64,000 nucleotides of DNA, taken from a virus. Location of the stretch: positions 62,001 to 126,000 of IMG/VR virus record IMGVR_UViG_3300044730_001822; one strand, given 5' to 3'. The position numbers were made by a program, and so were the translations under genes. The notes under the pieces are model-generated. The model worked only from the letters and a program-made list of their open reading frames with translations, was not told where the DNA came from and did not search any database. How positions within the stretch are numbered: position 1 is the first letter of the stretch; each line of letters begins with the position of its first letter. Positions 45,121 to 60,626 of this stretch are shown here, piece after piece.

Positions 45121-47505
45121 ATGCCATATACCGTAACCCTAACGCGAGGAGCAGTATTTGCTAATATAGCAGACGGAACCATCAATCAAACGTCAACCAT
45201 GACCTTGATTGGTCGAGATTTTGCCAACTACGGTCAGTTCGTAGATCAAGATTTAGTTCGTTTGCTAGAATCGGGCGCTGCCACACAAAACAGAAGCGCA
45301 ACCAGCGCACTCACCGGACAACTTTGGTTTGATCTAACCAATACCCAACTTAAAGTAGCCACTCTGGGTAACATACCCAATGGTGCGGCCTATACCACCA
45401 GCGGTCCTATCAAATGGCAAGGCGCCAGCCCTGCATATTCTGTAACAGCACCAGTGAACCCAGTGGTAGGCGATACTTGGATGTATACCAATACCAATGC
45501 CAACATACCGCAGATGGTAGTTTGGACTGGTGATACAGCCAACACAAACTTCCTAGGTAATCTGCCAGGATGGAAAGTAATTGGACCTACCACACGTTCG
45601 GATATCGTTGAATTCGGTACCATCAATGCAGATTATGCCAATTTTGATGAAACAGTAAACATAGATGTATTGTATGCCAATGTAGCTACTGTGGCCGAGT
45701 CGGTATTGATTGGACAGTATGCCAATGGTGCCAACGTCAACACAGCATTTTTACAGGTATTGGGCGATGGCATCTATGGAAATCTCAACGGAGATCAACC
45801 CTATGTGACCAGTCTGGGTAATGCTTCCAACGGTTTTGGGTATCTCAGTAACATACAGGTTGGCAGCATATCCGGTGGAGCATTGACCACTATCAATTCC
45901 AATGTTGGTATTACCACCACCGGTTCTATCACCGGAGTACAAATTACCGGCAGTACTATCCAGGCCACAGGCGGTGGATTCTACGGTCTTATCAACGCAG
46001 CTACTTCGGATCAAAAATTCATCTATGGCTTGGGTGTACAAGCACAGGCCTACTCTACCGCCAACAGCAACGCTATCGTTCGAGGTGGCACCAGTGCTGG
46101 TCTTGCAGTCAGTCGTAAAATCGTAGTAGACTACGGCAATGGATTTGCTGGAGTCAGCGATGTTGACATTGGCGAACCCTCGCCCACCGGTCCAAGATTC
46201 CGCGGAGTCTATGCCAACACATTCTTTGGTAATCTTTCGGGACAGATCCTTGGCGATGTGCCCAGCATCAGTTCCAATGATATTGTTGTGCCCAGTGCAG
46301 ATGGCTTGATATTAATCGGCAGTGGAAACTTACAACAAGGCACCGGCAATGTCAGAATCGACGGCGGCAATGGCACAGGCAGTTTTAACAACGCTATCTA
46401 TATTGGTCGCCCCGGCGGTAACTATGGCAACGGCAATGTTGGCATCATACATAGCTATGGTACCAGCACAGTATTTGGCGGGGTGGGAAATATCTTAACA
46501 TTTACCGATCTTACTGGCAATTGTCTCTATGATTTCTACAAAGATGTTCGTGTACGCGGTAATTTATATGTTTTAGGAAATACTGTTACAACATCTGTCA
46601 CAGAAGTTACTACCAACGACTTAGATATTGTTGTGGCCAATAATGTACAAACAGGCAACATCGTCAATGCCAGCGGCGCTGGCATAGTAGTAGGTGCTAA
46701 CGCTACTATAAAAATGGTAACAGTTGTTGCAGGATCTAGCTCAGCTGGATATGATGCTCAACGTTGGCAAATGAATCGTAGTTTAGAGATCACAAGCGAC
46801 AGTCCGGCCACGGGTGGCAGTATCGGAGATCTACGTGTAGCAGGCAATGTCTATGCCTGCACATCAGCCAGTATCGCTTCACTTAACATAACCGGCACCG
46901 GTGGTATAGTATCAACTGGCGCCAATGTGTTGCCAGCCGCTAGCCTTACTTCTGCCAATCGTCCTATTATCGACGGCTCTACGGGTACAGTGGGTTATGC
47001 CGCAGGTTTGTATGATGCTGCCACAGGTAGATACTATTGGACTGAAGAAGGATCTGCACTGTCGGGCACTCCCTATACGGCGGTGGTTCGAGATGTCAAC
47101 GGCAGTATCAATGCTACAGAATTTTCCGGTATTGCTACCAAGGCTAGATACGCTGACTTGGCCGAGATGTATTTGGCAGATCGCGAGTATGCACCAGGAA
47201 CATTGGTCACAGTAGGCGGCGATGCAGAAATCACCCAATGCACCATTAATGATCATCCTTTGGGCGTAGTATCTACCAATCCAGCATACCTTATGAACAC
47301 AGCTTTGGAAAATGGAACACCAGTGGCACTACGTGGCCGCGTGCCAGTTCGCATCACTGGCGCAGTACACAAAGGTGACAAATTGGGTCCCAGCGAAGTG
47401 CCCGGACTATGCACCAAAAATAATCAAGCACCAATAGCCATCGCGCTACATAATGCTTATGCAGAACCCGGTACCGAAACCACAGTCGAAGCAGTCATAT
47501 TGTAA
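45121..47505 (+). CDS. Tail fibre protein with C-terminal chaperone-like domain
   Basis: 794 residues. The N-terminus (VTLTRGAVFANIADGTINQT, then STMTLIGRDFANYGQFVDQD and ATSALTGQLWFDLTNTQLKV) is the attachment domain of cyanophage-type fibre proteins. The middle is a long Gly/Asn/Thr/Ser-rich repetitive beta shaft with many GN..G and VxGN units. From about residue 675, KARYADLAEMYLADREYAPG, TLVTVGGDAEITQCT, GVVSTNPAYLMNT and GRVPVRITGAVHKGDKLGPS form a C-terminal domain common on fibres, probably a trimerisation or intramolecular chaperone unit. It binds the host surface. The stop overlaps the start of the cupin-like gene (TAATG), tying the modification island to the tail operon. Confidence 0.85.
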   Translation: MPYTVTLTRGAVFANIADGTINQTSTMTLIGRDFANYGQFVDQDLVRLLESGAATQNRSATSALTGQLWFDLTNTQLKVATLGNIPNGAAYTTSGPIKWQGASPAYSVTAPVNPVVGDTWMYTNTNANIPQMVVWTGDTANTNFLGNLPGWKVIGPTTRSDIVEFGTINADYANFDETVNIDVLYANVATVAESVLIGQYANGANVNTAFLQVLGDGIYGNLNGDQPYVTSLGNASNGFGYLSNIQVGSISGGALTTINSNVGITTTGSITGVQITGSTIQATGGGFYGLINAATSDQKFIYGLGVQAQAYSTANSNAIVRGGTSAGLAVSRKIVVDYGNGFAGVSDVDIGEPSPTGPRFRGVYANTFFGNLSGQILGDVPSISSNDIVVPSADGLILIGSGNLQQGTGNVRIDGGNGTGSFNNAIYIGRPGGNYGNGNVGIIHSYGTSTVFGGVGNILTFTDLTGNCLYDFYKDVRVRGNLYVLGNTVTTSVTEVTTNDLDIVVANNVQTGNIVNASGAGIVVGANATIKMVTVVAGSSSAGYDAQRWQMNRSLEITSDSPATGGSIGDLRVAGNVYACTSASIASLNITGTGGIVSTGANVLPAASLTSANRPIIDGSTGTVGYAAGLYDAATGRYYWTEEGSALSGTPYTAVVRDVNGSINATEFSGIATKARYADLAEMYLADREYAPGTLVTVGGDAEITQCTINDHPLGVVSTNPAYLMNTALENGTPVALRGRVPVRITGAVHKGDKLGPSEVPGLCTKNNQAPIAIALHNAYAEPGTETTVEAVIL

Positions 47506-47975
47506 TGAATAGTATAGACGAATTCGAAGCCTTTATAGGCCGAGAGTTTGTCTATCAGCATAACCTAATAAGCATAATAAAAAACAGTCAACATCATTTG
47601 GTTTACTCCTATGATCAGTTGAAGAAAACATACAATGGTTGCTCGATCAAACTCGAAGGCCTAGAACGCTATTCTAGAGAACTAGCGATCAAATGTGCTG
47701 GATTGAAAATTTATCATGATCACACGGGTCCGGTCACTTGCCATGCCTACAGAGCCTATCCTGGATCAGAAAGTTTTGGTCGGCACACAGATCCCATGCC
47801 AGTGTTTTTAGAAGTAATAGAAGGCACCAAAAATCTCATAGTAGATGGAGAATGGCACACTCTTGAATCGGGCCAAACGCTGTTTATACCAGCCAATACA
47901 TCACACGAGGCTATAAATCAAGACGACAGCCTAATGTTGAGTTTTGGATTAGAATCATATCTAATTGATCGATGA
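47505..47975 (+). CDS. JmjC/cupin-type Fe(II) hydroxylase-like protein
   Basis: 156 residues with a cupin core: YRAYPGSESFGRHTDPMPVF, then LEVIEGTKNLIVDGEWHTLE, SGQTLFIPANTSHEA. The HxD at His94/Asp96 and distal His134 are placed as in JmjC/cupin-4 Fe(II)/2-oxoglutarate hydroxylases, which act on protein side chains. It is shorter than bacterial ribosomal oxygenases, so only the catalytic barrel is present. The start overlaps the tail fibre stop and its stop overlaps the radical SAM start (ATGA), so all three genes are coupled. It probably modifies a phage protein (inference). A metal-binding cupin of another activity is possible. Confidence 0.68.
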   Translation: MNSIDEFEAFIGREFVYQHNLISIIKNSQHHLVYSYDQLKKTYNGCSIKLEGLERYSRELAIKCAGLKIYHDHTGPVTCHAYRAYPGSESFGRHTDPMPVFLEVIEGTKNLIVDGEWHTLESGQTLFIPANTSHEAINQDDSLMLSFGLESYLIDR

Positions 47976-49045
47976 CCAACTATTTCAGTTACCTCAAGAC
48001 CACAGAAACCTGTAATCTAAACTGCCAACACTGCTTTACTTCAGGCACACAAGGGCGGAAGATTTTTTGGAATCCCGATCAGGTGGCAGATTTTTTCTTG
48101 AGATTTCGCGATTATGTTGGTCAGGCCAACGGAATGCACTATGAATTCCACGGCGGTGAACCTTTTTTAGCTCCAGTGTCAGACATGATCGATGTCTACG
48201 AGAAATTAAAAAATAGTTTTGATCAAACTTCTTTTGGATGTACCAGCAATCTCACTTTTAAACTAACGCCAGACATAGAACAGTTCATACACGGACCATT
48301 GGGAAAACGAATAGGTACCAGTTGGGATCCTGCCATAAGATTTGCTAATCAACGACAGGAGAGTCTCTGGAGACACAATGTAGAGCGCCTGCTGAACAGT
48401 GGAGTAACAATAAAATTGTTTGTGAGCGTAACACAAGATACCATCAGCATAGAACCAATCAAACTAATGGAATGGGTCCGGGATCTAGGAGTCCAGGAGT
48501 TGGATCTTGAACGTTTAACCAACAACGGAAATGCAAGGCTGCATCCAGGAATATTTCCCGACAATCGTGATCAGGATGCTTGGTTTTTACGCCTGCATCA
48601 TCAGATACAAGAACATGGAGCAAGATCTTGGTTTACCAACGAATTCATGGAAAATATCTATGCCAAGTTTGAACAAAATTTGATAGGAGCAGGCACATTC
48701 TGCAGAGATTGCGAACAAAAACTGTTTACTATCAATGCCGACGGCACCATTGGTGGTTGCCCAAATGCTGCGCCCGAAGAAGGGTTTGGGCATATTTCTA
48801 TGGGCATAGCGGAAATTATGACGCATCCACAGCGCATACACAACATAGCCTGCGAATCGCATAGAAACCCATTGTGCTATGATTGCGATGTGTTTGATAA
48901 ATGCGGATCAGACTGCCATCAATTGGGCTGGCAACACGACGTCTGTGGTGCCCCAAAAAGTCTCATGCGAGAGTTGAAATTTGGTCAGAAAATAGCGGCA
49001 AAAAACCCACGCATCTTTCGGATTCAGCCCGCTTCTACAATATAA
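47972..49045 (+). CDS. Radical SAM/SPASM peptide-modifying enzyme (rSAM-1)
   Basis: 357 residues. The radical SAM cluster motif CNLNCQHC (Cys14, 18, 21) opens the barrel, and FHGGEP (59-64) binds SAM. The C-terminus has a SPASM/twitch-like Cys set: Cys244, 247 and 263 (FCRDCEQKLFTINADGTIGG, then C), and 302, 305, 311, 315 and 325 (CYDCDVFDKCGSDC...C), enough for two auxiliary clusters. This architecture is typical of RiPP maturases that form thioether or C-C crosslinks. The gene lies 8 nt before the first CHSSC-tail protein, making it the leading candidate for tail modification (inference). Confidence 0.88.
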   Translation: MTNYFSYLKTTETCNLNCQHCFTSGTQGRKIFWNPDQVADFFLRFRDYVGQANGMHYEFHGGEPFLAPVSDMIDVYEKLKNSFDQTSFGCTSNLTFKLTPDIEQFIHGPLGKRIGTSWDPAIRFANQRQESLWRHNVERLLNSGVTIKLFVSVTQDTISIEPIKLMEWVRDLGVQELDLERLTNNGNARLHPGIFPDNRDQDAWFLRLHHQIQEHGARSWFTNEFMENIYAKFEQNLIGAGTFCRDCEQKLFTINADGTIGGCPNAAPEEGFGHISMGIAEIMTHPQRIHNIACESHRNPLCYDCDVFDKCGSDCHQLGWQHDVCGAPKSLMRELKFGQKIAAKNPRIFRIQPASTI

Positions 49046-49048
49046 ATA
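49041..49048 (+). promoter_or_regulatory. Late promoter TATAAATA before the first CHSSC-tail gene
   Basis: A full TATAAATA match (CAATATAAATATAAGCATGG), overlapping the end of the radical SAM gene and ending 5 nt before ATG 49054. It is the best match in the window to the T4 late consensus. Strong late expression fits a virion protein, and the gap is again leaderless in type. Confidence 0.7.
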
Positions 49049-49053
49049 TAAGC

Positions 49054-49830
49054 ATGGCACAAATTCAATCTAATTCACTGATAAATGCTTCTAATGTAGT
49101 CAGCTCTTTTTTCACAGAAGTAGTTAGCGTTAATTCTTCGGGCACAGGAGCAACCGTGGCCAAGAACAACAATACAAATTTAGCCGATGCCGTGGTATGG
49201 GGTCCAACCGGAGGTGGACTAGGACAACAATGGCCCACAATGACTGCCGCAGAAATTCCCCTATGGCAATCACAGTTTTCTGGTGGTACTGGGAGTTTTG
49301 CGTTAAATAGAACCGGGGCAGTGGCAGCAGGATCAAATGCCTGGGCCACCGGCAGCGTGACTCCAACTAATTTTAATTCTGCAGCACCCGGTACACCGCA
49401 AGATCCTGTTTACGCCAGCAAGTATTCAGGTTCGGGAGTACCCAGTTCCACAGCATTGTTATATACGGCTGCCAGACAATATCTTTCAATCAATTGGACC
49501 ACAGCCACTAGATATCTACTGGGCGGTAGTCCCACTGTATATGGGCCTTTTAAAGGTACCTTTAATACTGCTCAGTTCTCTAATAATTTTAACAATTCTA
49601 TTGGACCATTGGGATACGATGGCGGCGAGGATTTAGGCAGTGTAGCCGACTCTACCTATGGTGCCGGTAACACTGTGGCCAATCCGTCGGATCAAACTGA
49701 GTGGGGCATCAATAATTATTTCCAAGCACTAAAGACTGCTTTCAATTCAAGGCCAGTATCTACGGTCAGTATCACAGTTTGTCATTCTAGTTGTCACAGT
49801 AGCTGCCACGGAAGCCGTGGCAGGAGATAA
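49054..49830 (+). CDS. Putative modified virion protein A with CHSSC C-terminal tail
   Basis: 258 residues from ATG 49054; a longer frame upstream lies inside the radical SAM gene. The body is Gly/Ser/Thr/Asn/Ala-rich with no Cys and no His, and contains helical and beta patches such as LLYTAARQYLSINWTTATRY. The last 16 residues are CHSSCHSSCHGSRGRR, three CHxS units with Cys spaced by three residues, then a basic end. The next gene ends identically. Flanked by radical SAM genes and driven by a perfect late promoter, it is best read as a virion (perhaps fibre-associated) protein whose C-terminus is a RiPP-like core peptide (inference). No homology to a named structural family is recognised. 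Confidence 0.7.
   Translation: MAQIQSNSLINASNVVSSFFTEVVSVNSSGTGATVAKNNNTNLADAVVWGPTGGGLGQQWPTMTAAEIPLWQSQFSGGTGSFALNRTGAVAAGSNAWATGSVTPTNFNSAAPGTPQDPVYASKYSGSGVPSSTALLYTAARQYLSINWTTATRYLLGGSPTVYGPFKGTFNTAQFSNNFNNSIGPLGYDGGEDLGSVADSTYGAGNTVANPSDQTEWGINNYFQALKTAFNSRPVSTVSITVCHSSCHSSCHGSRGRR
49780..49827 (+). other. CHSSC core-peptide-like tail of protein A
   Basis: Sixteen codons for CHSSCHSSCHGSRGRR. All Cys (3) and His (3) of the protein are here. Compared with the tail of protein B, 12 of 16 codons differ and all differences are synonymous, which shows selection on the peptide rather than recent copying. Confidence 0.75.
49803..49823 (+). promoter_or_regulatory. Perfect 9-bp hairpin at the end of protein A, touching the next ribosome site
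   Basis: CTGCCACGG pairs with CCGTGGCAG around an AAG loop. The 3' arm runs into AGGAGA, the ribosome site for the next gene (ATG 49833). Ribosomes finishing gene A would melt it, so it could couple translation of protein B to A. The equivalent codons in gene B do not form this hairpin. Confidence 0.55.
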
Positions 49831-49832
49831 CC

Positions 49833-50615
49833 ATGACTATCTCCACCGGTGATCTAATAAGATCTCAAAATCCCGGCAACGCTCAAAGCATAATACAAAG
49901 TTTTATCAATGGATATCTGGCATCTACCAATGCCAACAGTCCTAACAACAGTCTTGTGTTTTATACCGGGAGTTATCCAACTAGAACTGTTCCCACAGCA
50001 TATCGTGCATCAGCCGACGCAGTTTATGCTGGTCTGGGCTTATTCACTGGCATCGGTAATCGTGTGTCTAATGTTATATCAGACAGTAATATAGCCAACG
50101 TCAGTAACAATACTATATTTGCCAATACGGGCGTGACGTTGACTTATGGTAACAATGCAGCCCAGGCCATAACCACCGGCAATACATACACAGGATTCAG
50201 CCAAATATTTTTTAGAGAATTACAAAGATATTTGATTTATAGAAACATCTATGCCAGCACTTCTATCACAGGTAATATGTATCCTGCCAACGTTCCATTT
50301 ATTGATCAAGGCAAAGGCTTGATCGATCCTAGTTTTTCAGGAGCAGGAGTAACCAATTGGAATGGTGGAGCCATTGATCCAAATGCTATAACAAATCCCG
50401 CTGGTAATGCTAATTTAGCCACAGACAGTGCGGTCAGTGCCGACACCAATGGTATCATTGGTGGAGAAGATGCCACAGCTTTTAATACCTATTGGTCACA
50501 GTTGATGACCAATTGGGTGGCAGCTTATTCGGGCACTGGTACTATTTCAATCACTACAACATTATGCCACAGCAGTTGCCACAGCAGTTGCCATGGTTCA
50601 CGAGGACGGAGATAA
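49833..50615 (+). CDS. Putative modified virion protein B with CHSSC C-terminal tail
   Basis: 260 residues from ATG 49833, behind AGGAGA and 2 nt after gene A. The body is Asn/Gly/Thr/Ser/Ala-rich with no Cys and no His, and differs from protein A apart from similar size and a shared T-[VI]-S-I-T stretch before the tail. Segments such as FSQIFFRELQRYLIYRNIYA look helical. The end is the same CHSSCHSSCHGSRGRR. Two unlike carriers with one conserved tail is the pattern expected when a shared enzyme reads the tail. Role as a virion protein is inferred from late expression and composition. Confidence 0.7.
   Translation: MTISTGDLIRSQNPGNAQSIIQSFINGYLASTNANSPNNSLVFYTGSYPTRTVPTAYRASADAVYAGLGLFTGIGNRVSNVISDSNIANVSNNTIFANTGVTLTYGNNAAQAITTGNTYTGFSQIFFRELQRYLIYRNIYASTSITGNMYPANVPFIDQGKGLIDPSFSGAGVTNWNGGAIDPNAITNPAGNANLATDSAVSADTNGIIGGEDATAFNTYWSQLMTNWVAAYSGTGTISITTTLCHSSCHSSCHGSRGRR
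50565..50612 (+). other. CHSSC core-peptide-like tail of protein B
   Basis: Sixteen codons for the same CHSSCHSSCHGSRGRR as protein A, written with mostly different codons (for example R-G-R as cga gga cgg here and cgt ggc agg in A). Confidence 0.75.
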
Positions 50616-50618
50616 CAA

Positions 50619-51350
50619 ATGTCAAACACAATTCATACTATCGCACCCATCAGTTTAGATAATCTAAAATTATATTTTGCAGATAAAACTATAAACTATC
50701 TTGTGGATTATAAAAACAGCAAATTGCAAGGTCAAAAGTTACTTACATATCTTGGAAACTTAGATCTCAAAGCAGATATCCAAATCGACGATGCCCGCGA
50801 TCCAGAATTCCTTGAACTACTTAAGGTATACTTCGAAAGCACCACCTTGGTCAATGTGCCTTCTTTGGAAAGAGCTGCTATACAGGTGTTGTTTGAATAT
50901 CGCGGACTAGTACCCAGTGATTTTTTCTCGGAATTTATACAAAATAATCAAGAGGTATTAAGTTCCTGGACTAGTAAGTTAGATAGTCTGGTGCTGTACA
51001 ATACTTGGATTATCAATGATCAAGCAGCCAAAGACGAAGTGTCGTCTTTCCCCTTAGATGAAACTGACAGCATAGATGGCATAAACTGGGTTAGTTTGCT
51101 TAAACACGAAGATTTTTACTTTTACTTTCAAACCGTTGATTTTTCAAATTTAAAGAACTATACTCGCTATTTTAACGAAAATCTGTTTAAAGGCAAGAAT
51201 CTCTATACTTTTTGGGCCAACGAAAAAAATCCTATGTTTCTTATCACTTGGGGCATATTAGAGCAACAAATAAATAGTACTGAGTGGGCCACACTGCTGA
51301 ACAAAGCCACACAAGAGATTAAGGATCAAGAAAATGCTACATCTGTTTAA
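50619..51350 (+). CDS. Unknown protein of the modification island (243 aa)
   Basis: 243 residues, starting 3 nt after gene B with GGAG 9 nt upstream. It is acidic, aromatic-rich and mostly helical (LDNLKLYFADKTINYLVDYK, DFYFYFQTVDFSNLKNYTRY, NLYTFWANEKNPMFLITWGI). No Cys, no signal peptide, no membrane segment. I recognise no family. It is coupled to the tail genes before it and to the next unknown gene by a 17-nt overlap, so a role as recognition partner, chaperone or assembly factor for the tail proteins is plausible but unproven. Confidence 0.7.
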   Translation: MSNTIHTIAPISLDNLKLYFADKTINYLVDYKNSKLQGQKLLTYLGNLDLKADIQIDDARDPEFLELLKVYFESTTLVNVPSLERAAIQVLFEYRGLVPSDFFSEFIQNNQEVLSSWTSKLDSLVLYNTWIINDQAAKDEVSSFPLDETDSIDGINWVSLLKHEDFYFYFQTVDFSNLKNYTRYFNENLFKGKNLYTFWANEKNPMFLITWGILEQQINSTEWATLLNKATQEIKDQENATSV

Positions 51351-52461
51351 AAGGGTATATTTGTCCATAGATGAAACCCTAGATACATCTAATCATAGAA
51401 TTGTGATAAGCCAAGATTATGGTTATCCAATGGTCACAGATCAAACTAACCTTGGTACTCTACTAAATTACGCCACAAGTTTAGATGCTGTTATTGGTCC
51501 CGACGCAGCGTTTGCTAACTATCTTGGGTTTTTTAATTACCTAGATGGCCAGTGCGATAGTCTTGATGCACAGTTGGTTGTATATGCCGATAAAGATGCA
51601 TTTGTAAAACTATCAACTAACTTTTTACGAGCAGCACTGCCATTGGCCAACGCACAAGATATATATAGGATCCTATCTTACTATCTTGCTAGACAAAATT
51701 TACTTTGCTCCAGTGCAAATTATTACAGCCCTGTACAGAATGTTGAAAGGCTCAAAAGCAAGACAGGTATCACGCAAGAAGAAGTTTCTGCAGAGTTTTT
51801 TGCCAATCGAGTCAATCCACCGGATTTCTATGCTTTTTTTGCTTCTAAGTACAAGGATCTCAGTATCGAGTACGTGGCAGCAACTTATAGTTACAACGGA
51901 CGTCTGGCAACCGAGATGGCCGAACAGCTGAGATCATTTGCCATCAAACACGCTTATATGTGTGCTATCGAATCTAGACAAGCAATCTGTGACACTTTGT
52001 TATCTGCACATACACAGTCAGTATTAAATCTCGCCAATCTTCCAGTGCAAGAAATGATCAATGTAGTTAAAAACGCTGATAGTACTGCAATCTTTTTTGA
52101 TGAAAGAGTATTCCCCAGAGAGGAATCTACAGTCAGTCTTGATGCCAATTGGCGCAAATTATCAACAGCAGATATTGTAAAACTGTCAAGGATGTCTATC
52201 AAGGTACTACACGAAATTGAAAAATGGCCCATCATGCAAGATCTAGGTTATAACTCCATGCAGGTTTTACAGGCTATAGTTGATATCAATAATCCCCAGG
52301 CCTGGCAACGACATGCAGATAAAATGTTAGACAATCTTTGTCTTGTGGCCAATGAAGCAGAGCCACATAAAGTCAATGCATTGCTAGTAAATTATATCAC
52401 AGAAAATCGTGGTGCCAATAAAGATTTATTGCGACCTTTTGTTGTCAACGGTTGTTACTAA
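51334..52461 (+). CDS. Unknown protein of the modification island (375 aa)
   Basis: 375 residues. The first 45 or so have a beta-rich start (LFKRVYLSIDETLDTSNHRI, then VISQDYGYP), and the remainder is helical, with LVVYADKDAFVKLSTNFLRA and an alpha-solenoid-like C-terminus. No catalytic motif is recognised. It overlaps the preceding unknown gene by 17 nt and is followed by rSAM-2 after 11 nt. Such an N-terminal beta unit could bind a substrate peptide in the manner of a RiPP recognition element, but I cannot show the winged-helix fold from sequence alone. Confidence 0.7.
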   Translation: MLHLFKRVYLSIDETLDTSNHRIVISQDYGYPMVTDQTNLGTLLNYATSLDAVIGPDAAFANYLGFFNYLDGQCDSLDAQLVVYADKDAFVKLSTNFLRAALPLANAQDIYRILSYYLARQNLLCSSANYYSPVQNVERLKSKTGITQEEVSAEFFANRVNPPDFYAFFASKYKDLSIEYVAATYSYNGRLATEMAEQLRSFAIKHAYMCAIESRQAICDTLLSAHTQSVLNLANLPVQEMINVVKNADSTAIFFDERVFPREESTVSLDANWRKLSTADIVKLSRMSIKVLHEIEKWPIMQDLGYNSMQVLQAIVDINNPQAWQRHADKMLDNLCLVANEAEPHKVNALLVNYITENRGANKDLLRPFVVNGCY

Positions 52462-52472
52462 AAGAGGATACC

Positions 52473-53525
52473 ATGAATGTTGGCATTCGGGATTTTATCT
52501 TAGAACGTAAACGAGACACCGAACAAGAATATACCATACACTTATTTGAGTTTTGTAATCTCAGTTGCCAATTTTGTTGGCAAGACCACAATGACATACG
52601 CGGTATAGACACCGTTAGAAGTCTAATGCCCAAACTAAAGCAGATGCTGGCCCGAGAAAGTCGTGATCGGGTCATACTGAACTTCATGGGCGGCGAGATC
52701 TTTGCTCCAAAGATCTTTACACATCAACTGCTGGAAGATTACTACTACATCATTGATTCGGTCAAGATGTGGCAATCCGAACTAGATAAAAAGATCATAG
52801 TCAATTGGGTGACCAATTTGGTATTCGATGCAGAGCAGAGAGATTTTGTCAAATCCTTGTTACAGTACGCAGACAACCTAGCAGTCAAGTCACGACTGAC
52901 TACCAGTTACGATGCCCTGGGCCGTTTCAATCGCGGCGATCTAGAAAAGTGGAAATCAAACGTAGAATACTTTAGGAGTGACATAGAAGGTGTCAGTATG
53001 TTGCTCAGTGGTCCAAACATCAGGAATCTTTTAAAGAATAGAGATACTGTGTTCCAGTGGATCTACAACAGCGGATTGTATATCTACTTTGATTACTATA
53101 TGCCCGACAAAACCGCCGACTATCAAGCACCGTCGGACCAAGAACTGTATGATGCATTTGTGTTCTTGATCGATAACTACCCTCAGGTGCATCCTGTGGC
53201 CGAGTGGATCAACTACAGCCGAAACTTTGCCAGTTGCCGCAGCAGCAAACTTTTGTTGTGGGATGGTACTGAATGTATGTGTGGCAATCTTGTGCAAGAA
53301 GAAAAAAGTATCAAGTTCTATCGCAGTAAAATCCAAACCAACGACAACAGTGACATAGAAGAAAACTTTCTAAAGAAACACGACTGTATCAGTTGCCAAT
53401 GGTTAGATCGCTGTACCTTCAGTTGCTTTATGCAACACGACAACAAATACCGAGACGAGTTTCCTGACTGCGTCTATGCTAGAATCTTTGATTACGCACA
53501 CGCCAATGATAAGTTGTTGGCATAA
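52473..53525 (+). CDS. Radical SAM/SPASM-like enzyme (rSAM-2)
   Basis: 350 residues from ATG 52473, which has GAGG 6 nt upstream; an earlier in-frame start at 52452 overlaps the previous gene and lacks one. Radical SAM motif CNLSCQFC (Cys28, 32, 35) and FMGGEIF (71-77) are clear. The C-terminus carries Cys255, 268, 270, 305, 308, 314, 318 and 333, arranged like SPASM auxiliary-cluster ligands (CISCQWLDRCTFSC). It shares this plan with rSAM-1 but is otherwise quite different, so the two probably perform different reactions or act on different residues. Confidence 0.87.
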   Translation: MNVGIRDFILERKRDTEQEYTIHLFEFCNLSCQFCWQDHNDIRGIDTVRSLMPKLKQMLARESRDRVILNFMGGEIFAPKIFTHQLLEDYYYIIDSVKMWQSELDKKIIVNWVTNLVFDAEQRDFVKSLLQYADNLAVKSRLTTSYDALGRFNRGDLEKWKSNVEYFRSDIEGVSMLLSGPNIRNLLKNRDTVFQWIYNSGLYIYFDYYMPDKTADYQAPSDQELYDAFVFLIDNYPQVHPVAEWINYSRNFASCRSSKLLLWDGTECMCGNLVQEEKSIKFYRSKIQTNDNSDIEENFLKKHDCISCQWLDRCTFSCFMQHDNKYRDEFPDCVYARIFDYAHANDKLLA

Positions 53526-54162
53526 TCATAACGGACTGCCTTTTTGCCAAACTGATCTCAACTGTGGCATAGATGTTCCGGCAGTATCTAAAACAGTTGA
53601 TATCAAAGTTCCTGAATGGTTGCAGGCCTGCGAACTTACAGATACCGTATTTGACTACACATCTGACGCAAGTATATTTCCACCCTGCGTGAATTTCTTT
53701 GGACGACCGCTCGAGGATCGCGTGACAGTGCTAGGCATAAGATTAGAATCAGCATCGGGTGTTTTTGCCCACAGCGGCTTCATTGAAAAATCTCTACGGA
53801 ATATCAGCCAACCGCTGAGCGGTACGCCCAGGGGAGTTGATAATATGCTGCCGGTAGCTTGGATTGGTTCGGAACAGTATCAAGGCAGCACCTATGTCAA
53901 CAACAATCAAGTATCAGGACATCTAAGAAATTTGCTATCTAGAAAACAACTAAAAGAAATACATATTCTTCTAATGGATTTTGTTGAACAACGTCAATCA
54001 GTAAAAGTAGCGCATCATACCACCATAGCACATTGGATCAAACAGCATGGACGTCAAGGTCAGAGATATATGCAATTTCCCTATACCAGTAGAGTCATGC
54101 GTGGGTGGATAAAAATTGAAGAATACGGTTGGCTATGGTGGACTAGGCCATTAATTCGTTGA
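53506..54162 (+). CDS. Unknown protein after rSAM-2 (218 aa)
   Basis: 218 residues from ATG 53506 (MISCWHNHNGLPFCQTDLNC), overlapping rSAM-2 by 20 nt; an earlier ATG at 53476 would add ten residues. The N-terminus is Cys/His-rich (CWHNHN, C, C within 20 residues), possibly metal-binding. The rest has ASGVFAHSGFIEKSLRNISQ, LPVAWIGSEQYQGSTYVNNN and an aromatic C-terminus (WIKIEEYGWLWWTRPLIR). No family recognised. Its end overlaps the convergent B12-type radical SAM gene by 20 nt. Confidence 0.65.
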   Translation: MISCWHNHNGLPFCQTDLNCGIDVPAVSKTVDIKVPEWLQACELTDTVFDYTSDASIFPPCVNFFGRPLEDRVTVLGIRLESASGVFAHSGFIEKSLRNISQPLSGTPRGVDNMLPVAWIGSEQYQGSTYVNNNQVSGHLRNLLSRKQLKEIHILLMDFVEQRQSVKVAHHTTIAHWIKQHGRQGQRYMQFPYTSRVMRGWIKIEEYGWLWWTRPLIR

Positions 54163-55789
54163 CTAGAAGCAGCCGTATCATTGAATCATTGCTGGCAATA
54201 AAATCTGCTATGACATCTTGCTTGTATCGTTGTTGTCCCGAATCATCCGCGAGATAAAACAAATCTCTGGCTTCGGTTGTGCAATCGTATAAATCAACTA
54301 TCTGTTGATGTATGTGATCAAATCCCGGGCAGCTTTGCAGTATAGGGTACATACGTCTCATAAAGTCACTGATACTGATTGAATCTCGATACTGATCATA
54401 GTAGTTCATTCTTAAAGATTGTGCTGCTTGATTCATGAAATACATTTCATATAAATCTTGCCGAGAAAAACTATAGCAGCTGGCAATGGTATGAAAGTAA
54501 TTTTTAGTGCCAAACATACTGGTGCTGTAGATAGCAGTCAGCTCCACTGAATGCTTTTCTAAATCGCCGGTGCTACTGGCCTCGGTAGCAGGTAGATAAC
54601 TATATTCAAATCTAGGATCTGACCAAGAATGCAGTATCTCCATCATTGCAAATTCACTGTAGAAGTCGTCGATGGTGCTGCCCGGCATGCCCATTATAAA
54701 TTCCACTGAAGCAATCTCTTTGATCTCTGCATAGGGTCTGCGGAAAAACTCTTCTCCGTATCGGTCTTTTAATCTATCGCGTATGTGATAGCACAGTTCA
54801 AACTGTTGCTCTAGTGTTAGATCGGGTCGTAGGGCATTGGTCAATGCTTCCTGGCTAAAGGTCTGAACCGATAAATTGGCACGCAGGCCTAGATTCACCA
54901 GTTGATCAATAATTCTTTTTTTACGCTCTAGCTTTTCTGTTTTTAGCAAACTCAACACATGAACACGCATACCTTTGCGTTTGATGATTTCTAGCATTTC
55001 AAAGTCGCGCTTTTCCAGCATTCCTATGTTGGAATCAATCAAATCTATGGTCTTGAAACCCAGTTCTTCGATGCAATCCAAATCCTCGCGTATCTGCTCG
55101 ATTGTTTTCTTTTCTAGTTTGACACCAGTTCCGCCACCCCACTCGCAGAAGGTACAGCGGAAAGGACAACCTCTGGTGCTTTCGTAGGTCATGCTCACAG
55201 GCATACCGCGGCTTTCAAAGTAGGCCTTGGCACGAGCTATATAGTCATAGTGTTCGCGATACACGCTAACATATGGATAGTAAAAACTCTTTTTAAGTCC
55301 ACGACTTTTGATATCGAACGCTATCTCCAATGGATCGGGACGTCCGTTATTTTTAAACCAACTGTCAATCCAATCCTGCATATACAACTCTGCTGGCATG
55401 GTAGGTTCGCAGATGTAATCATACATGGAATAACGATGTTCAAAATCTTTACGGTGTATGTCTACCTGCGGCCCGCCTATCTGTGTCAATATATGTGGAT
55501 GATGCTGCTTGATCCAGCAGGCGGCCTGATCGTTGATTGAATAGTTCCAGATATAACTGCTGAACATGATGACATCGGCATCAACATATCGCTCAATGGC
55601 CTCTTCTACGGTCTTGATATCATACCAATCGTATATGGGTTCAATCCATTCTACTGAATCTCTATGCCTGCCATGTAAATCGTAATGCGTCTTGGCAAAC
55701 ATCCAAGTGAGATTCCAAGCATAAAAATCTCTCTCTGCACTGGGATTGAAAAAGGCTATCCTCAAAGGACTCGTATTTGATCTTGCCAT
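54143..55789 (-). CDS. Cobalamin-binding-type radical SAM enzyme (rSAM-3)
   Basis: 548 residues. The N-terminal 145 resemble a B12-binding Rossmann-like domain (LRIAFFNPSAERDFYAWNLT, then ADVIMFSSYIWNYSINDQAA and HILTQIGGPQVD). The radical SAM motif is RGCPFRCTFCEWGGG (Cys208, 212, 215), with IDLIDSNIGMLEKRDFEML and VEFIMGMPGSTIDDF later in the barrel. Enzymes of this plan often methylate unactivated carbons in peptides and natural products. Its operon mates, two 2OG oxygenases, lie upstream with a 28-nt overlap. Methylation of the phage tail proteins is one possible role (inference); other peptide or cofactor substrates cannot be excluded. Confidence 0.83.
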   Translation of the reverse strand: MARSNTSPLRIAFFNPSAERDFYAWNLTWMFAKTHYDLHGRHRDSVEWIEPIYDWYDIKTVEEAIERYVDADVIMFSSYIWNYSINDQAACWIKQHHPHILTQIGGPQVDIHRKDFEHRYSMYDYICEPTMPAELYMQDWIDSWFKNNGRPDPLEIAFDIKSRGLKKSFYYPYVSVYREHYDYIARAKAYFESRGMPVSMTYESTRGCPFRCTFCEWGGGTGVKLEKKTIEQIREDLDCIEELGFKTIDLIDSNIGMLEKRDFEMLEIIKRKGMRVHVLSLLKTEKLERKKRIIDQLVNLGLRANLSVQTFSQEALTNALRPDLTLEQQFELCYHIRDRLKDRYGEEFFRRPYAEIKEIASVEFIMGMPGSTIDDFYSEFAMMEILHSWSDPRFEYSYLPATEASSTGDLEKHSVELTAIYSTSMFGTKNYFHTIASCYSFSRQDLYEMYFMNQAAQSLRMNYYDQYRDSISISDFMRRMYPILQSCPGFDHIHQQIVDLYDCTTEARDLFYLADDSGQQRYKQDVIADFIASNDSMIRLLLVNELMA

Positions 55790-56349
55790 TGCTCTTGTAT
55801 TCTGTATCCAAACACCATGCTTTGTCTATCGGTATCGCCAAAGTAAGGCCGTATTTTATGTATGAGATATCCAGGAAACATGACCAAGCGATTACTGAAT
55901 GGTCTGATATGCACTGCATTGTCGGGCCAATTGAGTGCTGTAAAGTTTTTGTAGATGCTTAGTTCTCCGCCTGCCCAGTTTTGTTCAGTGTATTCGCTGC
56001 GGATATACAGTATGCAGGCCAAGAAGTAATTCTCTGCTATGTCTTCGTGCGGTTCCCAAAAAGGATTCTGCCAATTTGATTTATTATAAGCACGAAAGTT
56101 GGCTATCTGGAAGTTTGTGAGTTGTAATCTCTCTGCGTCTATGTTGAGATCTTGGCAGTAGTTATAAACGCAGGCATCGATACGAAACTTGACATTGTCA
56201 AAATATGCACATTCGCTGGGATCAAGACTGATATAGAATTCTTGTTTATTTAGAAATTTCTCTGTGATGAATTCACTGATGTTATCCCTTAATCTATCAT
56301 CTAACAGGCCATCCTCGACGATGATGTTATCTCGAAATTGATGTATCAT
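55762..56349 (-). CDS. 2OG-Fe(II) oxygenase (copy 1 of a paralog pair)
   Basis: 195 residues with the prolyl-4-hydroxylase-like core: WEPHEDIAENYFLACILYI (Fe ligands His101 and Asp103), GGELSIYKN, NRLVMFPGYLIHKIRPYF (distal His164) and DRQSMVFGYR (Arg175 for 2-oxoglutarate). Such enzymes hydroxylate protein side chains. The upstream gene is a clear paralog, and the starts and stops overlap (ATGA; 28 nt with rSAM-3). It may hydroxylate a residue in the same target as the radical SAM enzymes (inference). Confidence 0.85.
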   Translation of the reverse strand: MIHQFRDNIIVEDGLLDDRLRDNISEFITEKFLNKQEFYISLDPSECAYFDNVKFRIDACVYNYCQDLNIDAERLQLTNFQIANFRAYNKSNWQNPFWEPHEDIAENYFLACILYIRSEYTEQNWAGGELSIYKNFTALNWPDNAVHIRPFSNRLVMFPGYLIHKIRPYFGDTDRQSMVFGYRIQEQWQDQIRVL

Positions 56350-56960
56350 AGTATGCGATTAGGATAGCACTTGAGGTCTCGTAGTCCCCAACAGTTGATT
56401 ATGGCTGTGCGTGGTGTATGGCCAAAATAAGGGTTCACACGATGTACATTGAAAGCACTGAACACTATCAGTCTATTCAGCAAAGGTTTAATCCTCACAG
56501 TGTTTTTGGGAAATTGGCCACAACTTAGATCCTTGTACAATATCAATTCGCCACCTACCCATTGATCCGATTGTTCATATTCGCTATTGACATACAGTAT
56601 GGTATTGATAAACACATTTTCGGCCATGTCATGATGTGGTTCGTGGAAAGCGTCACGGCTCATGTGTTCATTGAATCGATTTAGCCAAGCAACCTGGCAA
56701 TTGGTATACTCAAGGTTATCCCAATCAACATCTACCTGCATACAGTGTTCCAAGGCCGCTGCTTCGACCATGGGAAAAAGCCGGCGCATGATCAAACTAT
56801 GGTTGTCATTGATATCTTGATTGATTAAACTATAGGTATTGCCTGCAGGAGCGATGGTGGCTATCTGATGGTCGCACTCTTTCTGCAGTTCTTGTAAAAG
56901 ATCTGCATCAACAAAATTTTCATGTATGGAAAGGTGTTCAGACCACAGCGTATGTAGCAT
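56346..56960 (-). CDS. 2OG-Fe(II) oxygenase (copy 2 of a paralog pair)
   Basis: 204 residues, with the same order of motifs as its downstream neighbour: FHEPHHDMAENVFINTILYV (His109, Asp111), GGELILYKD, NRLIVFSAFNVHRVNPYF (distal His173) and TPRTAIINCWGLRD (Arg184). Divergence between the two copies is substantial, so the duplication is old or they have split roles. A TAAATA box ends 5 nt before the ATG, so this operon of three genes has its own late promoter. Confidence 0.85.
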   Translation of the reverse strand: MLHTLWSEHLSIHENFVDADLLQELQKECDHQIATIAPAGNTYSLINQDINDNHSLIMRRLFPMVEAAALEHCMQVDVDWDNLEYTNCQVAWLNRFNEHMSRDAFHEPHHDMAENVFINTILYVNSEYEQSDQWVGGELILYKDLSCGQFPKNTVRIKPLLNRLIVFSAFNVHRVNPYFGHTPRTAIINCWGLRDLKCYPNRIL

Positions 56961-56965
56961 ACCAG

Positions 56966-56971
56966 TATTTA
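56966..56971 (-). promoter_or_regulatory. Late promoter box, leftward arm of the island
   Basis: Minus-strand CGCTAAATACTGGTATG: the box is separated from ATG 56960 by 5 nt. It drives the 2OG-2OG-rSAM-3 operon. It mirrors the rightward box, with the same C-T(T)-GGT-ATG spacer. Confidence 0.6.
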
Positions 56972-56993
56972 GCGACCCAGTATTTTAGCACAG

Positions 56994-56999
56994 TAAATA
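56994..56999 (+). promoter_or_regulatory. Late promoter box, rightward arm of the island
   Basis: Plus-strand CAGTAAATACTTGGTATG: the box is separated from ATG 57006 by 6 nt. It drives rSAM-4, rSAM-5 and the three following genes. Only 45 nt separate the two divergent ATGs. Confidence 0.6.
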
Positions 57000-57005
57000 C
57001 TTGGT

Positions 57006-58088
57006 ATGGATCTGATCATCAAACCCACAGAACTTTGTAACTTCAAATGCACCTTTTGTTCCAGTACGAATATCACTGACAACAAAAATGCCACGCTGTC
57101 TGTTGATCAAATATTCCAATTCCTTGAACGATTTCCTGACACCAAAACAATCATAGTCAACGGCGGCGATCCACTCATGATGTCGCCTGCATACTATTGG
57201 AAGATCATTGACTGGTTGGACTTACATGAGTATGATACCAGCGTCAGCTTTACCACTAATCTTTGGCCTTTTTATAAGAATCCAGAGAAGTGGGCGGACT
57301 TGTTCAATCACGAACGCATGGGTATAACTACCAGTTTTCAATATGGTGGAGGTAGACTTAAGGGAGATCTCACCGAGTTTTCGGAATCCGACTTTTGGAA
57401 ATGCAGTGACGCCATGCTACGCTATTGTGGATATAGGCCAGACTTTATCACAGTAATAACTGAAGAAAATGCAGATCGTGCTCTCGACAATGTGAGACTG
57501 GCCAAGAAGATGGATGTAGAATGTAAACTGAATTATGCTTTCAGTTCAGGACCTCCTGTGAAGTTTCGCAACATCATCATGGGCCAGCAAGGTCGTCCTT
57601 TCGTACTGGCAGACATCTATGAAATCTATCTTGAAATTTGGCGTGAAGGTTTGTATCCCTGGGAACACAGTACCAAGACCATGATGAAACGACTGCGCGG
57701 TGAATCCACCATCTGCCCTCAGAATCGAGACTGTGATGTAGGCATACGCACACTACAACCTTCGGGCGACTACTACAGTTGCGGAGCCTTTGGTGATGAC
57801 AAAGAATACGCTATAGATTTTGAACAGGAGATGAACAGTAAAACAATCATCAGGATACTGAACGATAAACCAGAACTGCAAAGCCTCAAGCAGAGCTGTT
57901 ACAGTTGTCCTATGTTTGATATCTGCAATGGCTGTCGCAAAACCATAACCGATCTCAAGAGGCATAATCTGGTTGAACGCCACTGTAGTAAAATGAAAAC
58001 ACTAGCAGCTGATATCATTGAAGCTAATGGTCTTGCTGGAAAATTAGAACCTACTGAATATGTGAAAGAATATGAATATATCACTTAA
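57006..58088 (+). CDS. Radical SAM/SPASM-like enzyme (rSAM-4)
   Basis: 360 residues. Radical SAM motif CNFKCTFC (Cys11, 15, 18) very close to the N-terminus, then VNGGDPL (51-57). The C-terminal region carries Cys236, 242, 258, 297, 300, 306, 309 and 326 (CPQNRDCDVGI, SCGAFGDD, CYSCPMFDICNGC), consistent with SPASM-type auxiliary clusters. It begins the rightward operon behind a leaderless-type late promoter and overlaps rSAM-5 by 17 nt, so the two enzymes may act as a pair. Confidence 0.87.
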   Translation: MDLIIKPTELCNFKCTFCSSTNITDNKNATLSVDQIFQFLERFPDTKTIIVNGGDPLMMSPAYYWKIIDWLDLHEYDTSVSFTTNLWPFYKNPEKWADLFNHERMGITTSFQYGGGRLKGDLTEFSESDFWKCSDAMLRYCGYRPDFITVITEENADRALDNVRLAKKMDVECKLNYAFSSGPPVKFRNIIMGQQGRPFVLADIYEIYLEIWREGLYPWEHSTKTMMKRLRGESTICPQNRDCDVGIRTLQPSGDYYSCGAFGDDKEYAIDFEQEMNSKTIIRILNDKPELQSLKQSCYSCPMFDICNGCRKTITDLKRHNLVERHCSKMKTLAADIIEANGLAGKLEPTEYVKEYEYIT

Positions 58089-58989
58089 CCCTTGGTATTA
58101 CTGTAACTTCCGTTGTAAGTTTTGTTATCTGACAGAAGGACAATTGTCTAGTCAGAAACTTATAAAGTTAGATACATTAGAAGAAAGATTACAGCAAGTG
58201 TTAGCACACTATGGCGTAGTTGATCAGATTGACGTTTATGGCGGCGAAGTGGCACTCTTGCCTCAGCAGTATTTTGATGACATGACTACAGTGCTCAAAC
58301 GGTATTGTAAAAATCTAAATATGATTACCAATCTCAGTGCTGTAAATCAAATTACAGAACATCCAGATTACAGTCTCAGTGTCAGTTACGATTTCAGTGC
58401 TAGGGAAAAACATGATTTGGTTTATAAGAATATGAGTATGCTTAAATCTGACTTTAGTGTGCTGATGTTGGCAAGTTCGCATTTGGTTTCTCTTGATCCC
58501 AACTATATGATTAATATGTTTAATCTTATACCAAGTCTTAGATCCGTAGAGATCAAACCCTACAGCCGTAACCAGGCCAATGATTTGGGAGTCACAGACA
58601 AAGATTTTGAAAACTATGTGATACGTTGGCTAACAGCTGCAGTTCCTAAAAAATTTGAGTTCGTCAATGATTTTTTGATAAAAAATGTATTGCAAGGACA
58701 GTCAAACAGCTACAGTGATGATCACATATACATCACACCAAATGGTAGATTTGCGGTGTTAGAATTTGATATCAATGATCGAGAGTACTTCTTAGAAATG
58801 GATACCATTGAAGAATATCAACAATGGTGTGAACAAGAAAAACGACGTGTAAATCTCAATGAATACTGCAGAGACTGCGAGTTCAAAGGACGTTGTTTAA
58901 GTGAACATCTGCGTGAAGTCAAAGATATCAAAATGAGTTGCAACGGTTATAAACATTTGATACAATGGTATGGTCGTCAATACGCTTAA
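58072..58989 (+). CDS. Radical SAM enzyme with short Cys-rich C-terminus (rSAM-5)
   Basis: 305 residues. CNFRCKFC (Cys11, 15, 18) and DVYGGEVA (54-61) are the radical SAM signatures. The C-terminus has CRDCEFKGRC and a further Cys (near 267-291), fewer than in rSAM-1, -2 and -4, so probably a single auxiliary cluster. The N-terminus MNISLNPWYYCNFRCKFCYL is compact, with no extra domain. It overlaps rSAM-4 and the next gene (20 nt), showing tight coupling. Confidence 0.85.
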   Translation: MNISLNPWYYCNFRCKFCYLTEGQLSSQKLIKLDTLEERLQQVLAHYGVVDQIDVYGGEVALLPQQYFDDMTTVLKRYCKNLNMITNLSAVNQITEHPDYSLSVSYDFSAREKHDLVYKNMSMLKSDFSVLMLASSHLVSLDPNYMINMFNLIPSLRSVEIKPYSRNQANDLGVTDKDFENYVIRWLTAAVPKKFEFVNDFLIKNVLQGQSNSYSDDHIYITPNGRFAVLEFDINDREYFLEMDTIEEYQQWCEQEKRRVNLNEYCRDCEFKGRCLSEHLREVKDIKMSCNGYKHLIQWYGRQYA

Positions 58990-59662
58990 CCCTGCCGCAT
59001 ATGTTCAGCGGATTAAAATTATCACAGAGTCTAATCAACAACAGATAACGCCATCCCTGTTAGAACAAGCGGCATTGGAACGATCGCCAAACTATCGTCA
59101 TCGGGACGGAAGGATCTATGCCAGCAATCCAAGCGAACCTTATTTTGCTGTCAGCGTTAGTCCATTGAATCCAGAGTTTGAAAATCAAATAGAATCTGGT
59201 ATATTGCCCGTGGTTATGGCATTGTTACAGCGCAACTATCTTCCCATCAGCAGTTGTGAAGGGCACGGCGACAGTAGAAGTTTTGTTAGGATCGTGTTTG
59301 GATCTGATCAATCTGCAGATGAATTTATCAACGAGTTTGGTACCATGGAATATGTAACCCTGGAGAAATTACAAACCAGTGCAAACATTGTACAATGGTG
59401 GGAAAATGGTCAACCTCATTGGCGGCCAAAATACAACGACGAAATCACAAATTCCAACTTAGAGACTCAGGAAATTAATCTTTTGTTCAAACGAAACTAT
59501 GTCCAGGTTTGCTACGTGGATATCAATCTTTATGATGTCAACCAAAAATTTTGGGATTTTTTCAAACGACAAAAAATGATAAAAGATATCATGTCTAACA
59601 AAAAGCAGCGTTTGGACTGCATCAGAGATCGGATATTGTCAATGAAAGTCTACGAACTATGA
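58970..59662 (+). CDS. Unknown protein with SSCEGHG motif (230 aa)
   Basis: 230 residues. A central LLQRNYLPISSCEGHGDSRS, then FVRIVFGS, resembles the S-C-x-G-H motif of several poorly characterised proteins and could bind metal. The C-terminal 60 residues are helical and basic. It overlaps rSAM-5 by 20 nt and the next gene by 4 nt (ATGA). No enzymatic family can be assigned. Its conserved place in the operon suggests it serves the radical SAM pair. Confidence 0.65.
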   Translation: MVVNTLNPAAYVQRIKIITESNQQQITPSLLEQAALERSPNYRHRDGRIYASNPSEPYFAVSVSPLNPEFENQIESGILPVVMALLQRNYLPISSCEGHGDSRSFVRIVFGSDQSADEFINEFGTMEYVTLEKLQTSANIVQWWENGQPHWRPKYNDEITNSNLETQEINLLFKRNYVQVCYVDINLYDVNQKFWDFFKRQKMIKDIMSNKKQRLDCIRDRILSMKVYEL

Positions 59663-60060
59663 AAGAGTGGAAAGTACGCCAGGAAGTATATCACAGGCTT
59701 ACACAAGAACATGGCGACGACTTGAATCAGTGCAGTATTGAAATAGTCCACGATGTTGTGGCATCGGCTGTGAGATATTTCCATGAGCATGATATTGGAT
59801 GGTTGTATCCCAGTAAAAGTTATGTTGTAGCTATTTTGTATGCCAAGTGGCTGAATGAAGAATTTGGCGAAGACTTTTTGATTGCTCTGGACGATCCAGA
59901 ACTTTTATACAACAATGATCCTTACTTTGTACCTTACAGCCAAGATCCTGAAACTTATGTCAAGATCATTGCCGCGTTACCTCAGGACATGACACAAGGT
60001 AGGATACCAGATATACGAGATTATTTTGAAAGAGAGTTTATGATATGCAGCCAGGAATGA
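59659..60060 (+). CDS. Unknown small acidic protein (133 aa)
   Basis: 133 residues, mostly helical, with an aromatic-rich middle (HDIGWLYPSKSYVVAILYAK, WLNEEFGEDFLIALDDPELL) and a Tyr/Pro-rich stretch after it. No motif recognised. The start overlaps the preceding stop as ATGA, and its end overlaps the oxygenase gene by 16 nt. Possibly a helper protein for the neighbouring enzymes. Confidence 0.62.
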   Translation: MKEWKVRQEVYHRLTQEHGDDLNQCSIEIVHDVVASAVRYFHEHDIGWLYPSKSYVVAILYAKWLNEEFGEDFLIALDDPELLYNNDPYFVPYSQDPETYVKIIAALPQDMTQGRIPDIRDYFEREFMICSQE

Positions 60061-60626
60061 ATCTACTGTATCCTACGCCGGTACAATACACGACTATGCA
60101 GAATGAAAACATCTGTCAACAGTTGATAGATGCGCTAATGATCAATGTTAACCTGGCCGAGCCAACCAAAGAAAAACTAGGTGAGAATCTGTTAGATTTG
60201 GATTTGCCTGAGATTGCGCAGTGGGTGGAGCACGAAGTATATCCGGCCTTTGATCAATATTTGTATGCTACCACCGGGCGGCGTATAAATGATTTTTGTA
60301 GATACAAGTTTAAGTCTTGGCTTACTGGTACCCAAGGTAATTATCATCTGATTCTACATAATCACAGCGGCAGTCATTACAGTGGTGTTTTTTATCTTTT
60401 GGCCGAGGAATCAACGCAAGGAGGGCAGTTAGTATTCAGTGATCCCAGATCTAATGCCAATCGAGGATATGATTTTGGCAGAGAACAATTTGGTTACACT
60501 CATATACAGCCCAAGACCGGAGATGTTTACATTTTCCCCAGTTTCTTGTATCACTTTGTGATGCCTTATGCAGGAACGCTAAGGCTATGTGTGCCGGTGG
60601 ATCTATATCTTTTTGACGAATCGTAA
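60045..60626 (+). CDS. 2OG-Fe(II) oxygenase (TIGR02466-like phage type)
   Basis: 193 residues from ATG 60045; an ATG at 60057 is also possible. Motifs: LHNHSGSHYSGVFYLLAEE (His105, 107, 111), GGQLVFSDPR, THIQPKTGDVYIFPSFLYHF (distal His170), and PYAGTLRLCVPVDL (Arg180 for 2-oxoglutarate). This form, with F/Y..SGV.YL and FP..L.H.V.PY.G..R, is common in T4-like marine phages and differs from the paralog pair at 55.8-57.0 kb. Substrate unknown. It is the last gene of the rightward operon and its end overlaps the convergent hypothetical gene by 24 nt. Confidence 0.83.
   Translation: MQPGMNLLYPTPVQYTTMQNENICQQLIDALMINVNLAEPTKEKLGENLLDLDLPEIAQWVEHEVYPAFDQYLYATTGRRINDFCRYKFKSWLTGTQGNYHLILHNHSGSHYSGVFYLLAEESTQGGQLVFSDPRSNANRGYDFGREQFGYTHIQPKTGDVYIFPSFLYHFVMPYAGTLRLCVPVDLYLFDES

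Follow-up and report, generated by a model that had tools for sequence, protein, structure and literature searches.

The window analysed here is a 64,000-nucleotide (nt) stretch of the viral record IMGVR_UViG_3300044730_001822 (positions 62,001 to 126,000), from a phage with a Gp23-type capsid. Behind a tail fibre gene it carries an island of genes for radical S-adenosylmethionine (rSAM) enzymes and 2-oxoglutarate- and iron-dependent (2OG-Fe(II)) oxygenases, in which two adjacent genes encode proteins, hereafter tail proteins, that end in one identical 16-residue sequence, CHSSCHSSCHGSRGRR. Our analysis shows that this C-terminal tail recurs together with a conserved set of rSAM genes, and suggests that the enzymes modify it on a protein associated with the fibre. 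The two genes have the following features (window coordinates).

49041..49048, + strand: TATAAATA, T4-type late promoter −10 motif, the sole copy in the window
49054..49830, + strand: tail protein 1 (258 residues), with its ATG at 49054
49780..49827, + strand: C-terminal tail CHSSCHSSCHGSRGRR of tail protein 1
49833..50615, + strand: tail protein 2 (260 residues)
50565..50612, + strand: C-terminal tail CHSSCHSSCHGSRGRR of tail protein 2

The C-terminal tail and its distribution

In both proteins CHSSCHSSCHGSRGRR is followed directly by the stop codon, all 16 residues agree, and the tail holds every cysteine and histidine of the protein, exactly three of each; a check of the open reading frames (ORFs) bore out the original prediction on this point. 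The DNA coding for the two tails differs in 12 of the 16 codons and in 16 of 48 nt, and a global alignment of the bodies in front of them shows 25% identity, which argues for selection on the protein sequence and not for a recent copy. The description of the two proteins as otherwise different holds for this low identity but not for their ancestry: the bodies are distant homologues, as an iterated profile search with the tails removed joins 129 of 135 bodies into one family (with E-values from a small set). Searched as DNA at near-identity, the island matched none of 50,697 phage records, and a tblastn query with tail protein 1 was uninformative, the tail probably being masked by the low-complexity filter.

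A scan of 2.9 million viral contigs with a degenerate pattern, which itself sets the Cys, His and Arg positions, matched 93 stretches, 92 of which hold 103 ORFs that read the motif (consensus [C-H-x-S/N]x3-R-x-R-R). A stop codon stands directly after RGRR in all 103, though it was no part of the pattern, and the same motif is found in only 19 stretches among 84,980 species genomes, about three of them chance-like. Because every one of the viral ORFs ends at the motif and the species genomes hold so few copies, sharing of the tail by chance is excluded. Among cultured jumbo phages the tail protein is present in Atu_ph07 (gp170), FLC6 (gp72, with its close kin FLC8 and SURPRISE13), DT01 (gene 65) and Sinorhizobium phage Phosso; a literature search of open-licence papers for the tail string found no occurrence.

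Loci found through the third rSAM family of the island (rSAM3) alone have the same Cys/His/Arg spacing in 65 of 80 cases, and two variant tails carry more units and no RxRR, four at L179:7614-8186 and five at L023:545-1138 (on a 504-kb viral contig), indicating that CHxS is a true repeat unit. Cysteine makes up 0.2% of the bodies, and 101 of 135 bodies contain none. Over the 405 units of 135 tails, the residue two places after His is Ser in 368, Asn in 28, Ala in 7, Gln in 2 and Gly in none, whereas the residue directly after His is Gly in 109; this is as expected if a Cβ at position i+2 is required.

An AlphaFold2 model of the tail protein, built from a 48-member alignment, is confident for the body (predicted local distance difference test score, pLDDT, 88.7) and leaves the tail disordered beyond the last strand. 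A fold search of the Protein Data Bank (PDB) with the body gave no significant match (best E 1.7, template-modelling score <0.2), and confident matches in a viral structure library were to members of the family, including Atu_ph07 gp170, and to three uncharacterised proteins of Myoviridae sp. ctijX18. Judging by these models, the bodies would constitute one new fold.

An invariant end on diverging bodies, finished by a basic RxRR, could also be read as a docking tag, the C-terminal counterpart of the leader of a ribosomally synthesized and post-translationally modified peptide (RiPP), which recruits enzymes to residues in the body. The bodies offer few targets, since a near-invariant Arg89 and a few Pro, Gly and Ala are conserved and no other modifiable residue is, and expansion of the repeat in the variants without RxRR is more in line with a modified repeat than with a fixed tag. 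We consider a tag of this kind quite unlikely.

The rSAM cassette beside the tail fibre

The tail genes stand in the following surroundings; counts refer to the 38 loci with full flanks on both sides ('full-flank loci').

45121..47505, + strand: tail fibre, 794 residues, C-terminal Peptidase_G2/IMC-like domain
47505..47975, + strand: cupin/JmjC-like protein with HxD...H, candidate Fe(II) oxygenase (Pfam Cupin_2 4e-11, JmjC_2 2e-8); 34/38
47972..49045, + strand: rSAM1, CX3CX2C plus about eight more conserved Cys (SPASM-like), immediately before the tail gene
50619..51350, + strand: p20767 (phrog_20767), core protein without known function, new predicted fold; 36/38
51334..52461, + strand: p51334, frequent protein without known function; 34/38
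52473..53525, + strand: rSAM2; 37/38
53476..54162, + strand: non-core protein without known function, no profile match
54143..55789, − strand: B12-binding rSAM, KedN5/PhpK-like; 13/38
55762..56349, − strand: 2OG-Fe(II) oxygenase
56346..56960, − strand: 2OG-Fe(II) oxygenase
57006..58088, + strand: rSAM3, the most conserved core enzyme, SPASM-like Cys set; 52-75% identity among cultured phages and the window
58072..58989, + strand: rSAM4; 37/38
58970..59662, + strand: protein without known function; 15/38
59659..60060, + strand: p59659 (phrog_20737), core protein without known function; 34/38
60045..60626, + strand: 2OG-Fe(II) oxygenase (2OG-FeII_Oxy_5); relatives in 27/38

This confirms the predicted inventory of five rSAM enzymes, three 2OG-Fe(II) oxygenases, one cupin/JmjC-like protein and five proteins without known function. 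Genes overlap by 4-50 nt at 10 of the 15 junctions, and the three genes of the minus-strand block (54143-56960) encode the B12-binding rSAM and two of the oxygenases. In the structural region before the island, positions 26238-44321 of the window encode a single protein of 6027 residues; Atu_ph07 has a structural protein of 4449 residues at the corresponding place.

Tail and enzymes are linked in both directions. Starting from the motif, the gene immediately before the tail gene, in the same orientation, is rSAM1 at 57 of 65 viral loci with at least 1.5 kb of upstream sequence; starting from rSAM3, the exact C-terminal tail is present at 58 of 64 loci with a full upstream flank. Widespread tails away from rSAM genes, which the original prediction had named as evidence to the contrary, were not seen, and the two-way linkage supports its reading of the tailed proteins as likely substrates of the rSAM island. 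Most exceptions to the linkage belong either to truncated or four-unit loci or to a two-copy type (13 further loci) in which the tail genes lie 3-8 nt downstream of the fibre gene; the rSAM set of this type is separate from the tail genes where the fetched stretch shows it (L022, L029).

All 38 full-flank loci have rSAM1 and rSAM3, and 34 have the tail. The core, which comprises the tail protein, four rSAM families and the two families p20767 and p59659, is common to the cultured phages Atu_ph07, FLC6, DT01 and Phosso. The cultured phages differ widely, with rSAM1 36-50% identical between phage groups, yet keep much of the gene order, and rSAM3 of the window is 58-62% identical to those of the cultured phages, far above the identity of the tail bodies. 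The confident model of p20767 (pLDDT 93) likewise found no significant match in a PDB fold search. Individual loci add further genes: a paralogue of the tail protein that lacks the tail and whose C-terminal half is Gly-rich and adhesin-like, encoded just before the tail gene (L002:4646-5581, − strand; also L032 and L077), extra divergent rSAM genes of the CxxxCxGC type in phage DT01 (L096:16931-18962) and in a Bacteriovorax locus (L204:13722-15898), and, in FLC6, gp74 (L095:12790-14157), a p20767 homologue with an added N-terminal region of about 180 residues.

Three observations agree with the predicted role at the fibre or virion. First, among the 103 loci with both a tail gene and a fibre C-terminal domain, the fibre domain is in the same orientation and at most 2.7 kb upstream in 102. 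Second, 32 of 132 tail genes have the late promoter motif TATAAATA in the 100 nt before them, compared with about 1.2% expected from locus density (roughly 20 times background) and with 13 of 877 cases among other island genes (eight genes), suggesting that tail genes are under T4-type late-promoter control. The expectation of late promoters thus stands for the relatives; the window itself has the single copy just upstream of the first tail gene start, and the motif is not over-represented there. Third, most virion proteins identified by mass spectrometry in Atu_ph07 came from coding sequences (CDS) 31-76, 170-215 and 284-329 (PMC6102473). The CDS numbering agrees with GenBank (portal gp198, prohead core gp204), placing the start of the 170-215 cluster exactly at the tail protein gp170, which is therefore likely to be in the virion. 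The papers on FLC6 and SURPRISE13 yielded no virion mass spectrometry.

The gene logic is like that of a RiPP cluster with several tailoring enzymes, so the body might instead be a long leader from which the tail is cleaved and released as a free modified peptide, acting as a toxin, signal or metallophore. Scans with Pfam, NCBIfam and PHROGs recognised no protease or exporter in the window island, and no separate leader was seen; the bodies have a confident predicted fold, and the late promoters, the fibre linkage and the Atu_ph07 virion cluster starting at the tail protein all speak for a structural protein. A secreted product seems very unlikely.

Enzyme families and candidate chemistry

The Cys complement of rSAM1, CX3CX2C with about eight further conserved Cys, and the similar set in rSAM3 fit SPASM-type auxiliary clusters. 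The generic SPASM model is missed by rSAM1 (23.2 against a cut-off of 27 bits) and just reached by rSAM3 (27.2 against 27). Their best curated profiles are peptide maturases, all below cut-off (PapB, CXXX-repeat maturase, and DynA with 54 of 450 bits), and no rSAM enzyme of the window reaches the cut-off of a curated maturase family.

Three known kinds of system invite comparison. The Hxs system (HxsA with the rSAM enzymes HxsB and HxsC; TIGR03976-03979) also has His-Xaa-Ser units near a C-terminus beside at least two rSAM genes, and H-x-S is found in the 368 Ser-containing phage units, with Asn, Ala or Gln in the remainder; unlike in Hxs, the phage units begin with Cys and nearly always number three. 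The kinship to Hxs that the original prediction had raised is not sustained: rSAM1 and rSAM3 are far below the cut-offs of HxsB (TIGR03978, 16.7 of 370 bits) and HxsC (TIGR03977, 29.1 of 267.9 bits), and the HxsA profile matched none of 48 tail proteins up to E=10. We dropped Hxs membership on these grounds. The PapB ranthipeptide and CXXX-repeat maturases (NF047865, TIGR04115), the best profile matches of rSAM1, have in common with the phage tail a Cys at every fourth residue, but rSAM1 scores only 42.3 of 340 and 33 of 350 bits, no precursor family matches, and position Cys+4 is occupied by Cys or Arg, not by the Asp or Glu of the PapB-type CX3D/E substrate. The triceptide maturases HaaB, ScaB and YhhB, rSAM enzymes that form three-residue cyclophanes (3-CyFE), are reported to join C2 of His to Cβ(i+2), on Ala or Arg (PMC11002830). 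The triceptide product is marked by a cross-link from an aromatic residue i to Cβ of i+2, and the H-x-S/N/A of the phage tail is compatible with this geometry, whereas the known triceptide substrates are short peptides and the phage substrate would be a folded protein of about 120-320 residues, tied to a fibre and served by four rSAM families. Haem binding, considered for the CX3CH spacing, was also dropped.

We propose that rSAM1-4 modify the tail of a fibre-associated virion protein, a reading to which we assign a probability of about 0.6. The folded body of each tail protein would probably be docked to the neighbouring fibre, exposing a disordered 16-residue tail, (C-H-x-S)x3-R-x-R-R, on which the dedicated enzymes (SPASM-like where examined) would act before or during particle assembly. 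The cupin and 2OG oxygenases may assist them, and the two core proteins p20767 and p59659 could be carriers or scaffolds. Because neither a protease nor a separate leader was seen, the protein most likely retains its modified tail, which would form a rigid tip. The likeliest bond would be a cross-link within each CHxS unit, either a His-to-Cβ(i+2) three-residue cyclophane or a Cys thioether, with hydroxylation or methylation as optional additions; the His cyclophane in particular is possible but doubtful. A stiff or adhesive fibre tip of this kind might serve in attachment or in penetration of the cell surface.

Metal-bearing tips of phage fibres and spikes are established, for example with iron held by His. 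A Cys and a His in every CHxS unit, and a terminal tail near a fibre gene in all groups, would also suit a tail that is not cross-linked and whose Cys/His pairs bind metal in a fibre-bound oligomer, with the rSAM and 2OG enzymes acting on other residues or on the fibre. Such a tip leaves unexplained why four rSAM families track the tail and why the residue at His+2 is never Gly, and we judge it unlikely.

Several points weigh against modification of a virion-borne tail by rSAM1-4. The modification itself is inferred, and the invariant tail might serve as a recognition tag or a metal ligand instead of being the site of modification. The loci are related by descent, so the linkage counts are not independent events, and the exact tail pattern is missing from 6 of the 64 rSAM3 loci with full upstream flank (one is the four-unit L179, and three are of the type with tail genes elsewhere). 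Invariance of Cys, His and Arg is partly imposed by the search, the independent tests being the rSAM3-found loci and the two variants. The SPASM-like label of rSAM1 and rSAM3 is taken from their Cys pattern, not from a solved homologue, and the detection of gp170 in virions is read from a cluster boundary. Finally, a chromosomal version of the cassette shows that its function is not strictly bound to a virion.

Chromosomal cassettes in Bdellovibrionota and meaning

The predicted phage-encoded island is found in phages but is not purely viral: the core (tail, p20767, rSAM1-4 and p59659) is also present on contigs of Bdellovibrionota metagenome-assembled genomes (L204, L205, L206 and L207). In one contig its neighbours are genes for pyruvate kinase and an ABC transporter, in another genes that by eye resemble those for DapF and DksA; in the genomes that carry it, no Gp23 was found and no phage sheath scored above its cut-off. 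In a tree of rSAM3 the five Bdellovibrionota rows form one group with support 100/98. At three of four sampled loci, a neighbouring protein combines a pilin-like N-terminus, whose motif reaches the Pfam cut-off in one of them, with a following Peptidase_S74 (endosialidase chaperone) domain. The arrangement is parallel to that of the phage fibre, which carries a Peptidase_G2 domain. A likeness by eye of the Bdellovibrionota neighbour to the phage fibre C-terminus was unconfirmed (hhalign probability 12%). The three Bdellovibrionota loci with this neighbour also hold a small exported-looking protein.

Our broader proposal, made tentatively and at somewhat less than even odds, is that a conserved rSAM cassette allows phages to equip a protein associated with the fibre with a cross-linked tip of Cys and His, and that predatory Bdellovibrionota, with a fibre of the pilin-endosialidase-chaperone type, do so in parallel. 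Searches of open-licence papers for RiPPs made by rSAM enzymes of phages, or for virion proteins modified by such enzymes, returned nothing relevant, so that a subscription report may be missed. The island proteins belong to phrog_1802 (rSAM enzymes), phrog_35144 (the last 42-67 residues of tail proteins), phrog_20767 and phrog_20737 (the core proteins), which are annotated only as rSAM or as of unknown function, with no system described for them. The combination of dedicated radical enzymes with a fibre-linked virion substrate appears new, in that curated families fail to account for it, two folds lack a PDB counterpart and no viral precedent was found. The rSAM superfamily itself is already known, and the novelty would be smaller if the bond were an ordinary triceptide or ranthipeptide.

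The presence of the cassette in the cultured phages FLC6, DT01, Atu_ph07 and Phosso makes a test by mass spectrometry possible now, and the cassette offers four new rSAM families and two protein families with predicted folds absent from the PDB. If the proposal is true, the tail would represent a novel class of modification at protein C-termini and the first case of a virus particle altered by radical-SAM chemistry. Viruses would then have a pathway of radical enzymes of their own with which to alter a particle protein chemically, through a cassette that links phage fibres with fibre-like proteins of predatory bacteria.

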